A DNA stretch of 64,000 nucleotides from Rhodopseudomonas infernalis (GTDB lineage: Bacteria > Pseudomonadota > Alphaproteobacteria > Rhizobiales > Xanthobacteraceae). The stretch covers positions 62,001 through 126,000 of the forward strand of contig NZ_JAJNAL010000009.1 in the NCBI RefSeq assembly GCF_022271405.1, read 5' to 3'. A model generated the notes under the pieces. It did not search any database and was not told where the DNA came from. It saw nothing but the letters and a program-made list of their open reading frames with translations. A program made the translations under genes and the position numbers. Numbering within the stretch: position 1 is the stretch's first letter; every line of letters starts with the position of its first letter. Below are positions 16,523 through 48,677 of the stretch, piece by piece.

Positions 16523-16552
16523 TTGACAGAGCGCTTGCCGCCACCCTACGGT
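16523..16552 (+). promoter_or_regulatory. Possible promoter directly upstream of the cobalamin riboswitch
   Basis: TTGACA (16523-16528) with an 18-base spacer to TACGGT (16547-16552). The predicted start would fall at the 5' edge of the riboswitch, as expected for its own promoter. The -10 element is weak. Confidence 0.4.
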
Positions 16553-16730
16553 GGTAACCGACGGTTCCCGCAAGGGATCAATAGGGAATGCGGTGAGGAT
16601 CCAGGTCGATCCGATTCCGCAGCTGCCCCCGCAACTGTAAGCGGCGAGCCTTTCGCCAAGCGCCACTGGGACTCGTGCCCGGGAAGGCGGCGAAAGGCGG
16701 TGACCCGCGAGCCAGGAGACCTGCCGTCAG
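16553..16730 (+). ncRNA. Cobalamin riboswitch (adenosylcobalamin-type aptamer)
   Basis: Conserved pieces occur in the correct order: GGTTCCC, AATAGGGAATGCGGTG, GCAGCTGCCCCCGCAACTGT, GCGAGCC, GCCACTG, CGGGAAGGC, GGTGA, and the B12 box GAGCCAGGAGACCTGCC at about 16709-16725. The aptamer precedes the TonB-dependent receptor start by about 120 bases. It should lower expression of the receptor and PepSY genes when cobalamin is plentiful, probably through the region 16730-16852. Confidence 0.95.
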
Positions 16731-16852
16731 TCGTGGTCACACGCGAGCACATTGGGCGGGGTGTCCTGATGGGTGTCGAACTGCGTCCGGAGCTCCGGTC
16801 GCGGCAAGACTTCGTTCGCGGTGACGTGCCACGTTTACCGCGAGCCTGAACA

Positions 16853-44117: not shown

Positions 44118-44314
44118 AGCCGGTCGTCCGCGTCCCGCGCAGGCCCGATCTGCGCCGCCAGCGACCTTGGTCGCCGTTGTGGCGACCTGTGAAAACTGCT
44201 AACGAGACGGCGTTTCGCGCGACTGGCGACCAAGGATGGAGCACCATCGGGAAGCGCGAAATTGATCTGCCGCGCGCCTGGGCATTTGTTTCCTTCAACC
44301 AGAGGATCCTGCCC

Positions 44315-45967: not shown

Positions 45968-47062
45968 TCAGGCCGCAGCTCCTTGCTGTCGGCTACCCAC
46001 GGTGTGCCGTGCCGCTCGCCGGGCTTCGACCGCGTCAGCCAGCTCGTGCAGCACCGTCTCGGTGGTCGCCCAGTCGATGCAGCCGTCGGTGATGCTCTGG
46101 CCATATTGCAGCGGCCGACCCGGGACGACGTCCTGCCGGCCGGCGACCAGATTGCTCTCGATCATCACGCCGCAGATGCGGTCATCGCCGGCCGCGAGCT
46201 GACGCCCGATATCGGCCGTGACCTTCGGCTGATTGTCCGGCTGCTTGCTGCTGTTGGCGTGGCTGGCGTCGATCATCAGACGCGGTGCCAGGCCGTTCTT
46301 GCCGAGCACCGCGGCGGCGGCGTCGACGTTCGCGGCGTCGTAGTTCGGCGTCACGCCGCCGCGCAGGATGACGTGGCAGTCGCTGTTGCCGGTGGTGGCC
46401 GCGATGGCGTTGCGGCCGCGCTTGGTCACCGCCATGAAATGATGCGGCTGCGCCGCGGACTTCACCGCCTCCGCGGCGATCCGGACGTTGCCGTCGGTGC
46501 CGTTCTTGAAGCCGATCGGGCACGACAGGCCCGACGCCAGCTCGCGGTGAATCTGGCTCTCGGTGGTGCGGGCGCCGATCGCTCCCCAGGCGACCAGATC
46601 CGCGATGTATTGCGGCGTGATCAGGTCGAGGAATTCGGTCGCGGCCGGCAGGCCGAGATTGTTCACGGCCGCAAGTACCTGACGCGCGAGCCGCAGTCCC
46701 TTGTCGATCCGGAAGCTGCCGTCCAGGTCGGGGTCGTTGATCAGCCCCTTCCAGCCCACCGTGGTACGCGGCTTTTCGAAATACACCCGCATCACGATCT
46801 CGAGCCGGTCGGCCAGGGTCTCGCGCAGCGCCGCCAGACGGCTGGCATAGTCCATGGCTGCGGCCGGATCGTGAATCGAACAGGGGCCGACCACGACCAG
46901 CAGCCGGTCGTCGGCACCGGTCAGGATGGCGTGAATCGCGCTACGGCTCGCCGCGACTGTGCGTGTCGCGGTCAGCGTACGCGGAATCTCGCCTATGACT
47001 TCGTCGGGCGTACTCAGTTCGGTGATCTTCTGCAGGCGAAGGTCGTCGGTGGTGGTCAACAC
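45968..47062 (-). CDS. aroG: 3-deoxy-7-phosphoheptulonate synthase (DAHP synthase, class I)
   Basis: 364 residues, GTG start with AAGGAG eight bases upstream. Signatures of the AroG/F/H type are [59 protein letters not shown], and [29 protein letters not shown] carries metal-binding His. It condenses PEP and erythrose 4-phosphate at the start of aromatic amino-acid synthesis. It is preceded on the minus strand by an aromatic-rich leader peptide and a terminator, so expression is likely set by attenuation. Allosteric control is probable but not visible here. Confidence 0.95.
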
Positions 47063-47103
47063 GGCAGTCTGCTCCTTGTGAGGGAGACCTGCCGGCTCAA
47101 ACG

Positions 47104-47130
47104 AAAAAGCCGCCAGGTCTGGCGGCTTTT
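47104..47130 (-). terminator. Attenuator terminator in the aroG leader
   Basis: On the minus strand AAAAGCCGCCAG and CTGGCGGCTTTT are complementary, giving a 10-12 bp stem with a minimal loop, followed by T residues (47108-47104). It lies 22 bases after the leader-peptide stop and 42 bases before the aroG GTG. Its 5' arm (GCCGCCAG) can instead pair with CTGGCGGC in the leader frame (47181-47174), a possible antiterminator. Confidence 0.85.
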
Positions 47131-47151
47131 CGGACTTCGATGCTGCAATCT

Positions 47152-47229
47152 TCAGATCGCGCGAAATCCTCCCGCCGCCAGCGAGCTGCTAAAATAGAAG
47201 TACCAGTACGAGGCGGTCGGACGGATCAT
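47152..47229 (-). CDS. Aromatic-rich leader peptide of aroG
   Basis: A 25-residue frame beginning MIRPTAS and continuing with six consecutive aromatics, Tyr-Trp-Tyr-Phe-Tyr-Phe, then SSSLAAGG and ending FRAI. Such a run in so short a frame, placed between a promoter and a terminator, is the signature of a ribosome-attenuation leader. The ATG is seven bases after the predicted -10, so translation would begin at or near the 5' end of the transcript, as for some alphaproteobacterial trp leaders. No Shine-Dalgarno is visible, in keeping with a leaderless start. Stalling at these codons would allow aroG readthrough. Confidence 0.85.
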   Translation of the reverse strand: MIRPTASYWYFYFSSSLAAGGFRAI

Positions 47230-47236
47230 GCGGGCT

Positions 47237-47265
47237 CATATAGACCACGCCGGCGGCTTTGTCCA
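47237..47265 (-). promoter_or_regulatory. Candidate sigma-70 promoter of the aroG leader
   Basis: On the minus strand, TGGACA (47265-47260), a 17-base spacer and TATATG (47242-47237) form a good promoter. It lies between the stop of the upstream MFS gene (47277) and the leader ATG (47229). Transcription would start at about 47229-47231. Confidence 0.6.
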
Positions 47266-47276
47266 CGGACCGGGTT

Positions 47277-48677
47277 TCAGACGTCCGCCGAAGGCCGGAC
47301 CCGGGTCAGCAGCGCCAGCCCGGCGACGAAGAACACCACCAGCACCGCCATGCCGGCCTTCTGACTCGCGGTGATTGCCGTGACTGTCGCGATCAGCAGC
47401 GGGCCGATGAACGACGTCACCTTGCCGGTCAGCGCGAACAGGCCGAAATACTGCGCGATGCGGTCGCGCGGCGCGATCCGGATCAAGAGCGTGCGCGACG
47501 CCGCCTGCAACGGGCCGCCGGCGATGCCGATCAGGCAGCCGAGCAACAAGTACGCGCGCTCCGCCGGTGCGGCGAACAGCGCGGCGCCGGGTTGCGGCGG
47601 CGTCACCTCGACGAACACGATGTGCGACGGATCGATCAGCAGGATGCCGGCGATCGCGATCAGCAGCAGCACCATCGAGCCGGCGATCACCCGCTTGGAG
47701 CCGAGCGCGTCGTCGAGCCGTCCGCCGACGAAGGCGCCGATGGTCGCGGCGATCGCCAGGATCACGCCGAAGCTGCCGATCTGAATGGTGTTCCAGCCGA
47801 ACGTGCCGGTGGCGTAGATGCCGCCGAACGCGAATAGCGACACCAGGCCATCGGTGTAGATCATGTTGGCGAGCAGGAACGCGGCGAGCGAGCGCCGGTT
47901 CGGCAGGTCGCGCAGCGTCTCGCGCAGTTCGCGCAGGCCCTCGCGCACCGCGGCGCGCGCTTTCAGCTTAGCCGGAAAATCCGGCGTCAGCAGAAACATC
48001 GGTAGCACGAACACCACGAACCAGATGCCGGTGAGCGGTCCGCTGATGCGGTCGCCTTCGTGCATCGCCGGATCGAGCCCGAACAGCGGCGTGACACCGA
48101 GCAGCGTCTTGCCGGTGTCGGGGCTGGCGGCGAGAAAGCCGAGCACCAGAATGAGCGACAGGATGCCGCCGATATAGCCGGTCGCCCAGCCGGTGCCTGA
48201 TAAGCGGCCGATCTTCTCGGGCGGGACGAGATTCGGCATCATCGCGTTGTTGAACACGGTGGCGAACTCGACCCCGACGGTGGCGAGCGCATAGGCGATC
48301 AGCAGCGGCAGGATGATATGCGGATCGCTCGGCCGGCCGAACCACATCAGGCACGAGCCGATCACCAGCATCGCGCCAAACAGCGCGATCCACGGCTTGC
48401 GCCGGCCGCTGGCATCCGCCACCGCGCCGAGCACCGGCGACGCCAGCGCGATCAGGAAGCCGCTCGCCGCGGTGGCGAAGCCCCACCAGGATTGTCCGGT
48501 GGCCGGATCGGGCGCGACGTAAGTGACGAAATAGGGCGCGAAGATGAAGGTGGTGATCAGCGTGAAGTAAGGCTGCGCCGCCCAGTCGAACAAGATCCAG
48601 CCGAGCACCGCGGGGCGCGACGGATAGGTTCGCGGCGCAGTGTCCGGTGCACTCTCCGCGACGATCGATGACGCCAT
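47277..48677 (-). CDS. MFS transporter of the UMF1 (Atg22-like) family
   Basis: 466 residues from ATG 48677 (MASSIVAES). Twelve hydrophobic segments are visible. LGWILFDWAAQPYFTLITTF at about 25-44 is the UMF1/Atg22 signature, and GRRKPWIALFGAMLVIGSC is the MFS loop 2-3 region. Family members export amino acids or other metabolites in yeast vacuoles; bacterial substrates are unknown. It ends just before the aroG promoter on the same strand. Its start is 101 bases from the divergent ggt start. Confidence 0.85.
   Translation of the reverse strand: MASSIVAESAPDTAPRTYPSRPAVLGWILFDWAAQPYFTLITTFIFAPYFVTYVAPDPATGQSWWGFATAASGFLIALASPVLGAVADASGRRKPWIALFGAMLVIGSCLMWFGRPSDPHIILPLLIAYALATVGVEFATVFNNAMMPNLVPPEKIGRLSGTGWATGYIGGILSLILVLGFLAASPDTGKTLLGVTPLFGLDPAMHEGDRISGPLTGIWFVVFVLPMFLLTPDFPAKLKARAAVREGLRELRETLRDLPNRRSLAAFLLANMIYTDGLVSLFAFGGIYATGTFGWNTIQIGSFGVILAIAATIGAFVGGRLDDALGSKRVIAGSMVLLLIAIAGILLIDPSHIVFVEVTPPQPGAALFAAPAERAYLLLGCLIGIAGGPLQAASRTLLIRIAPRDRIAQYFGLFALTGKVTSFIGPLLIATVTAITASQKAGMAVLVVFFVAGLALLTRVRPSADV

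Follow-up and report, generated by a model that had tools for sequence, protein, structure and literature searches.

A leader with Tyr, Trp and Phe codons and a predicted transcription attenuator ahead of aroG in Rhodopseudomonas infernalis and other Proteobacteria, with a possible second layer of pairing in Alphaproteobacteria

On the minus strand of the window, by which we mean the whole 64 kb stretch of Rhodopseudomonas infernalis DNA that was analysed (contig NZ_JAJNAL010000009.1, positions 62,001 to 126,000), 214 bases separate aroG from an MFS/ATG22-like transporter gene that lies upstream on the same strand and ends at 47277. The AroG protein scored 525.8 bits against TIGR00034 (cut-off 173.2) and also matched PF00793. 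The intergenic stretch holds a predicted promoter, a short leader ORF whose peptide contains the run YWYFYF, and an intrinsic terminator (Table 1). A 17-nt spacer separates the −35 element from TATATG (47242-47237); the −10 element may also be read as CTATAT (47243-47238), the alphaproteobacterial form of this element. The leader ATG at 47229 stands seven bases past TATATG, and the leader ends with a TGA at 47154-47152. Promoter, leader ORF, terminator and the segment CTGGCGGC had been placed at these positions by an earlier, sequence-only reading, and all of them were recovered on the minus strand. The same reading had put the terminator 22 bases after the leader stop; the terminator is present, and we count 20 bases. 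A consensus promoter and terminator scan of the window listed neither the leader promoter nor the leader terminator. The scan requires a T at the last base of the −10 element, and the leader promoter has 9 of 12 consensus bases.

Table 1 Features of the aroG leader region in window coordinates. Regions 1 to 6 are the segments for which pairing is predicted.
Feature	Position	Strand	Basis or remark
−35 element TGGACA	47260..47265	−	inferred from sequence only; xGACA in 41/41 closest loci
−10 element CTATATG (TATATG or CTATAT)	47237..47243	−	predicted likewise; 7-8 nt before leader ATG
Leader ORF, 25 codons, probably leaderless; peptide MIRPTASYWYFYFSSSLAAGGFRAI	47152..47229	−	same-kind ORF in 14/14 aroG-bearing genomes of the genus
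Region 1, partner of region 2 in the protector hairpin	47209..47227	−	fold of leader alone
Six aromatic codons TAC TGG TAC TTC TAT TTT (codons 8-13)	47191..47208	−	TGG in 14/14 of the genus
Region 2 CUGGCGGC, inside the leader ORF, antiterminator with region 3	47174..47181	−	folds and comparison
Segment CTGGCGGC	47181-47174	−	position given by the sequence-only reading borne out
Intrinsic terminator hairpin and U tract	47104..47131	−	fold and own scan
Region 3 GCCGCCAG, terminator 5' arm, partner of region 2	47119..47126	−	folds and comparison
Region 4, terminator loop and 3' arm GACCUGGCGGC, partner of region 5 once freed	47109..47119	−	pairing tests
Region 5 GCCGGCAGGUCUCC, partner of region 4 or region 6	47083..47096	−	pairing tests
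Region 6, Shine-Dalgarno AAGGAG, CUGCCG and GUG start of aroG	47060..47077	−	pairing tests
aroG, type I-alpha DAHP synthase (3-deoxy-7-phosphoheptulonate synthase), 364 aa	45968..47062	−	TIGR00034, PF00793

The leader RNA was predicted to fold with −56.1 kcal/mol (z = −4.0 against dinucleotide shuffles). When only the stretch behind the aromatic codons was folded, up to and including region 3, the antiterminator formed by pairing of CUGGCGGC with GCCGCCAG, and a further hairpin lay inside it (−35.1 kcal/mol, z −3.6). Folded alone, the leader ORF engaged region 2 in a 1:2 hairpin, at −28.9 kcal/mol and with a z of −1.75 (window locus only), so that this protector hairpin appears weak on its own.

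Within the genus, the leader was present in all 14 genomes that carry aroG and absent from the two that do not (G007 and G010, both single-contig), each of which has one other DAHP_synth_1 match. All 16 genomes of the genus encode a type II DAHP synthase, and 14 of them aroG. Second or orphan copies of the leader were considered and rejected: the 14 genomes with aroG have one copy each, and no copy was found in the other two. Photosynthetic reaction-centre genes were detected in all 16 genomes. Apart from the invariant codon 9, the aromatic run (codons 8-13) uses only TAC, TAT, TTC and TTT; codons 8, 11 and 13 switch between Tyr and Phe, and all other changes in this run are synonymous. Outside the run, several codons show swaps between dissimilar residues within the genus (His/Arg, Leu/Pro/Ser, Asp/Asn/Ser), and codons 16-21, the part of the ORF that contains region 2, do not differ by a single base.

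To look beyond the genus, we used 191 AroG loci, made up of the 14 from the genus (the window's included), the best 80 contig matches, further sets of 7, 29 and 1, and 60 hand-chosen loci (among the matches listed, the next 20 by score and the rest for family diversity). At 117 of these 191 loci, aroG has in front of it a short aromatic-rich ORF and then a terminator, a share that is not a frequency in nature because the sample was chosen and favours near relatives. All 41 loci with an AroG identity of at least 76%, hereafter the core loci, have the leader. The sequence-only reading had proposed a search of related genomes for the aromatic peptide and had named a lack of conservation of its codons as evidence against attenuation; the peptide was found in the genus and well outside it, and codons 8-13 are conserved. 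Among the 76 named records with an assigned class, the leader occurs in 15 of 17 Alphaproteobacteria, 31 of 40 Betaproteobacteria and 8 of 8 Lysobacterales, and in none of the 10 other gammaproteobacterial records or the single record from Anaerolineae. At the eight aroG loci from named enteric and vibrio records, the scan for an aromatic leader found none. Few Alphaproteobacteria have a type I-alpha AroG at all (8 of an even sample of 289 genomes of this class).

In a FastTree phylogeny of 145 AroG proteins with midpoint root, the leader was scored in 66 of 78 rows on one side and in 5 of 67 on the other. The leader label needs 16 changes on this tree, compared with 48 for shuffled labels, which indicates that it is strongly clustered and did not arise by one loss-free gain. 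On the leader-rich side, 12 rows were scored as lacking the leader: the scan had overlooked a clear aromatic leader ORF at L025, L027, L044 and L123, the leader of L048 is frame-shifted, L096 is truncated by the end of its contig, and by eye the other six have a weak leader at most. Genome G547 encodes two type I-alpha DAHP synthases, of which L139, nearer to the AroG of the window, has a leader and L172 has none. Across the 117 leader peptides, Phe is found anywhere in 117, Tyr in 116, Trp in 89 and all three in 88, with Trp absent from 28. Outside the genus the aromatic run is shorter in places, being reduced at several loci to the four aromatics YWYF, and at L119 a Tyr is replaced by Asn. 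The leader at L042 has scattered aromatic codons and a GTG start, and L097 keeps the CTGGCGG segment and the terminator with only Phe-Tyr visible by eye; these two leaders are perhaps decaying or weakly responsive. In some Burkholderiales (L052, L053, L056 and L069) a long spacer follows the terminator, and 171-205 nt separate the leader stop from the aroG start.

To estimate how readily such an ORF arises by chance, ATG ORFs of 10-45 codons with at least 6 aromatics among 8 residues were sought on both strands of the window. A single ORF was returned, the aroG leader, and a terminator follows it. When the window was shuffled ten times by mononucleotide and both strands were searched again, no ORF reached 6 of 8 aromatics; 14 reached 4 of 8, and none of these was followed by a terminator. 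As the transporter gene ends on the same strand about 150 nt ahead of the terminator, one might picture the terminator as serving that gene, with a chance ORF beside it. We give this explanation next to no probability, given the conservation of the leader across three classes and the outcome of the window-wide scan. A chance ORF or a plain terminator was thus ruled out, also because relatives keep the aromatic ORF together with its pairing.

The pairing between regions 2 and 3 was then compared across the 117 loci. The duplex has at least 6 bp in 99 of them and fewer than 6 bp in 18, with a mean of 6.6 bp against 4.6 bp in shuffles. Both partners have changed together at L061 (GCCGGCGGT/ACCGCCGGC), L031 (AGGCGGT/ACCGCCT) and L035 (TGGCGGT/ACCGCCA). 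At single loci the duplex was better than 95% of shuffles in 61 of 117 cases, and that of the window locus was reached by 13 of 200 shuffles, just short of this level; these weak single-locus statistics are in part due to the segments being short and GC-rich. In 80 of the 99 loci the duplex begins 9-12 nt past the last aromatic codon. Judged by its footprint, a ribosome with the last aromatic codon in the A site ends about at the start of the antiterminator, so that a stalled ribosome would leave region 2 free. Stalled at the last aromatic codons, it would not cover all of region 1. At the level of sequence comparison, the anatomy of the leader, its association with aroG and the conservation and covariation of the mutually exclusive predicted pairings 2:3 and 3:4 are therefore evident.

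The locus displays a short upstream ORF rich in codons for the products, an intrinsic terminator and an exclusive antiterminator at the position that stalling would free. Based on these features, we consider it very probable that the leader is a ribosome-mediated transcription attenuator, acting within one transcript that starts from or beside the leader AUG. If aromatic tRNAs are charged, the ribosome would read through the leader and region 2 would not hold region 3, which would then be free to form the 3:4 terminator and end transcription ahead of aroG. If aromatic aminoacyl-tRNA runs short, the ribosome would stall on codons 8-13 and cover region 1 wholly or in part. Region 2 would be left just free to pair with region 3, the terminator would be blocked and aroG would be transcribed. 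We infer the transcript start, the stalling on uncharged aromatic tRNA and the read-through from the arrangement of these elements, and the joint sensing of Tyr, Trp and Phe is deduced from the codons alone. Attenuation by stalling on the aromatic codons, as the sequence-only reading had suggested, is well supported by the retention of codons 8-13 and the complementarity of regions 2 and 3.

A TnaC-like arrest by the nascent peptide, in which the stalling would be due not to uncharged tRNA but to the peptide itself or to free aromatic amino acids, could draw on the peptide end SSLAAGG-R-I, which is kept in close relatives. This stretch is, however, conserved as nucleotides and contains region 2. 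Furthermore, the leader peptides differ widely among clades while the class of codon and the pairing persist, and Tyr and Phe replace one another at three of the aromatic codons. We therefore regard arrest by the peptide as very unlikely and retain stalling on uncharged aromatic tRNA as the probable signal.

The position of the promoter bears on the start of the leader. An xGACA −35 and a TA-rich −10 pattern lie just ahead of the leader ATG at 41 of 41 closest loci, the pattern being loose and taken with the longest fitting spacer (19 nt at 37 of the 41 core loci, 17 nt by eye). Shine-Dalgarno-like motifs occur at −15 to −3 of the leader in 7 of 41 core loci, some of them overlapping the −10 element. 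The promoter pattern was found in 12 of 18 other alphaproteobacterial loci. Leaders of Xanthomonadales have a TATC/TATT hexamer ending 7-9 nt ahead of the ATG in 13 of 15 cases, and Burkholderia-type leaders a TATAAA-like element about 35-40 nt upstream (by eye). The spacing in the closest loci suggests that the leader ORF is likely leaderless in Alphaproteobacteria, in line with the start that the sequence-only reading had proposed. That reading had also raised an action in trans. As predicted from the coordinates, termination would yield an RNA of about 126 nt, and the leaderless layout resembles that of trpL as described for Sinorhizobium meliloti (PMC10117765), so that the leader might additionally act as a terminated sRNA or peptide like rnTrpL/peTrpL of that species. 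Within the genus the leader was found only next to aroG, with both in 14 of 16 genomes and neither in the other two, which speaks against a trans function, and we consider it unlikely.

Past the U tract, the folds suggest a further pair of alternatives. Region 5 (GCCGGCAGGUCUCC) can pair with region 6, that is with the Shine-Dalgarno sequence and CUGCCGUG at the start of aroG, or alternatively with region 4, the terminator loop and 3' arm GACCUGGCGGC. With 2:3 enforced, 4:5 appeared in the minimum-energy fold at 9 of the 10 loci first examined. Enforced folds were counted for 109 of the 117 loci. With 2:3 enforced, 4:5 was in the fold at 37 of 41 core loci, 21 of 29 loci of a hand-picked set of Alphaproteobacteria and Xanthomonadales and 12 of the remaining 39, and with 3:4 enforced, 5:6 was in the fold at 36, 20 and 13 loci of these groups, respectively; the hand-picked set was chosen after the 4:5 shuffle results, and one alphaproteobacterial locus (L145) and two from Xanthomonadales (L126 and L129) fell in the comparison group. 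Some 5:6 pairing persists in 25 of 41 core folds when 2:3 is enforced. The ACC of the terminator loop is invariant in all 41 core loci, which is odd for a mere terminator. In distant Alphaproteobacteria, region 5 tracks the loop (TCTCC/GGAGA at L132, TCACC/GGTGA at L063 and, with one mismatch, CCTCAC/GTGTGG at L099), and region 6 in turn tracks region 5 (CGGTGTGGT/ACCACACCG at L099 and CACGGTATG/CATACCGTG at L138, start codon included).

These pairings have to be weighed against a simpler explanation, namely that the leader is a transcription attenuator only and the sequence behind the terminator an ordinary 5' UTR in which 4:5 and 5:6 have no function. In its favour, single-locus tests outside the core are mostly unremarkable for 4:5, which was better than 95% of shuffles in 6 of 18 non-core Alphaproteobacteria, and 5:6 reached this level in only 12 of 36 core loci and 10 of 30 loci of the hand-picked set. 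For 4:5, the corresponding figures were 41 of 41 in the core, 11 of 39 at AroG identities of 66.5-76% and 3 of 37 below, and the complete core count speaks against functionless sequence, as does the invariant loop. Covariation was assessed by comparing own pairs with 5000 partner swaps among species, in groups defined by kinship or record title. Non-core Alphaproteobacteria exceeded all 5000 swaps for 4:5 (z 4.1, n=17), loop:5 (z 4.8, n=17) and 5:6 (z 4.1, n=18), and all Alphaproteobacteria thinned to 14 gave z values of 4.7, 4.0 and 4.0, reached by 0, 0 and 1 of 5000 swaps, although such tests do not fully remove relatedness. Both results argue against the simpler explanation. In the core alone the values were 0.1, 2.1 and 2.1, with 4:5 hardly varying there. 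Xanthomonadales alone gave 1.7, 1.7 and 0.3, none of them significant, and the 43 remaining loci (neither core, other alphaproteobacterial nor Xanthomonadales) gave 2.2 for 4:5, a null 0.7 for loop:5 and −2.4, below chance, for 5:6. These two groups count in favour of the plain attenuator, and the lack of loop:5 and 5:6 signal at the 43 loci indicates that aromatic leaders exist without a second layer. Other terminators in the flanks were sought as a control, and only two were found, too few to inform.

The plain attenuator is also compatible with the small changes in predicted equilibrium accessibility of the aroG start, which was computed for 103 of the 117 loci. The core mean changed from 0.36 to 0.41, compared with a fall of 0.09 when the intervening stretch was shuffled, and the gain was reached by at most 1 of 20 shuffles in 19 of 41 core loci. 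At the window locus the gain was slight (0.22 to 0.24) and was equalled by 8 of 20 shuffles. Overall, we see in the plain attenuator a serious possibility that nevertheless falls clearly short of an even chance.

As a group, the 4:5 and 5:6 pairings of the Alphaproteobacteria look real, and the covariation of both suggests a chain of hairpins linking read-through with translation. An effect on aroG translation would rest on the order of synthesis, in which region 4 meets region 5 before region 6 exists. We tentatively propose, with confidence only just below even, a domino switch of six segments that pair only with their neighbours, by which one stalled ribosome would set both transcription and translation of aroG. 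With charged aromatic tRNAs, 1:2, 3:4 and 5:6 would form, transcription would stop and the aroG start would be hidden. With a ribosome stalled on the Tyr, Trp or Phe codons, 2:3 and 4:5 would form, transcription would continue and the aroG start would be freed. This possible second layer past the terminator is an addition of the present analysis to the sequence-only reading.

An Rfam search returned no match above the gathering score in the leader of the window or upstream of aroG in 18 related loci, and a riboswitch or known leader family from Rfam was rejected for lack of a match. Elsewhere in the window, Rfam models identified a ZMP/ZTP riboswitch (RF01750, 63.2 bits) at 44209-44290 on the plus strand, just ahead of a plus-strand gene that we take from its translation to be purH, and a cobalamin riboswitch (RF00174, 133 bits) at 16545-16742, also on the plus strand. 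A glycine riboswitch (RF00504, 52.4 bits; L043:3448-3538, minus strand) lies near the aroG locus of [Pseudomonas] boreopolis.

The pheA and trp leaders of enterobacteria follow a three-helix logic. As in those leaders, a stall on codons for the product amino acids would here select between terminator and antiterminator; they differ from the aroG leader in that each responds to one amino acid and precedes other genes. Enterobacterial pheL and trpL are summarised in PMC11802643. Attenuation of DAHP synthase genes is of an already known kind. In Corynebacterium glutamicum, a Phe-Tyr-Phe leader peptide and transcription attenuation are described ahead of the DAHP synthase gene in aroR-aroF (PMC11802643, PMC4046766); according to the former account, the leader responds when Phe is limiting but not when Tyr is. 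Likened by description, both systems place an aromatic-codon leader peptide and an attenuator before a DAHP synthase gene. The C. glutamicum leader belongs to another phylum and is described with Phe and Tyr codons only, whereas the present one has Trp, Tyr and Phe in six codons and may be followed by a second set of helices. The trpL/rnTrpL leader of S. meliloti (PMC10117765) shares a leaderless alphaproteobacterial ORF (here predicted) and an attenuator RNA before a biosynthetic gene; unlike the aroG leader, it is described as a Trp attenuator before trpE with functions in trans. The uORFC-13-1 motif before aroF of Acholeplasma (PMC8632094) is likewise a candidate uORF attenuator just ahead of a terminator and before a DAHP synthase gene, and differs in that its description there names at least one Phe codon and only Acholeplasma and environmental sequences. 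The same source mentions that attenuation of E. coli aroF had earlier been hypothesised, and attenuators predicted before aroA-I-alpha-Y tyrA in two Vibrio species are reported from Merino's website (PMC1173090). Full-text searches, largely outside subscription journals, returned no account of a proteobacterial tri-aromatic aroG leader; such a leader may be described elsewhere or be present in attenuator databases. What is new here is, in Alphaproteobacteria, the putative second set of helices past the terminator.

Carbon destined for any of the three aromatic amino acids is committed at the DAHP synthase step, and one leader with Tyr, Trp and Phe codons would therefore be a compact readout of the whole branch. 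This leader spans alpha-, beta- and gammaproteobacterial lineages without matching an Rfam family. If the domino switch holds true, transcripts leaking past the terminator would also be poorly translated, and the second layer would be a concrete case of one stalled ribosome governing both termination and a downstream start codon. In Alphaproteobacteria it would then have been built onto an older attenuator, one that accompanies a large group of DAHP synthase genes.
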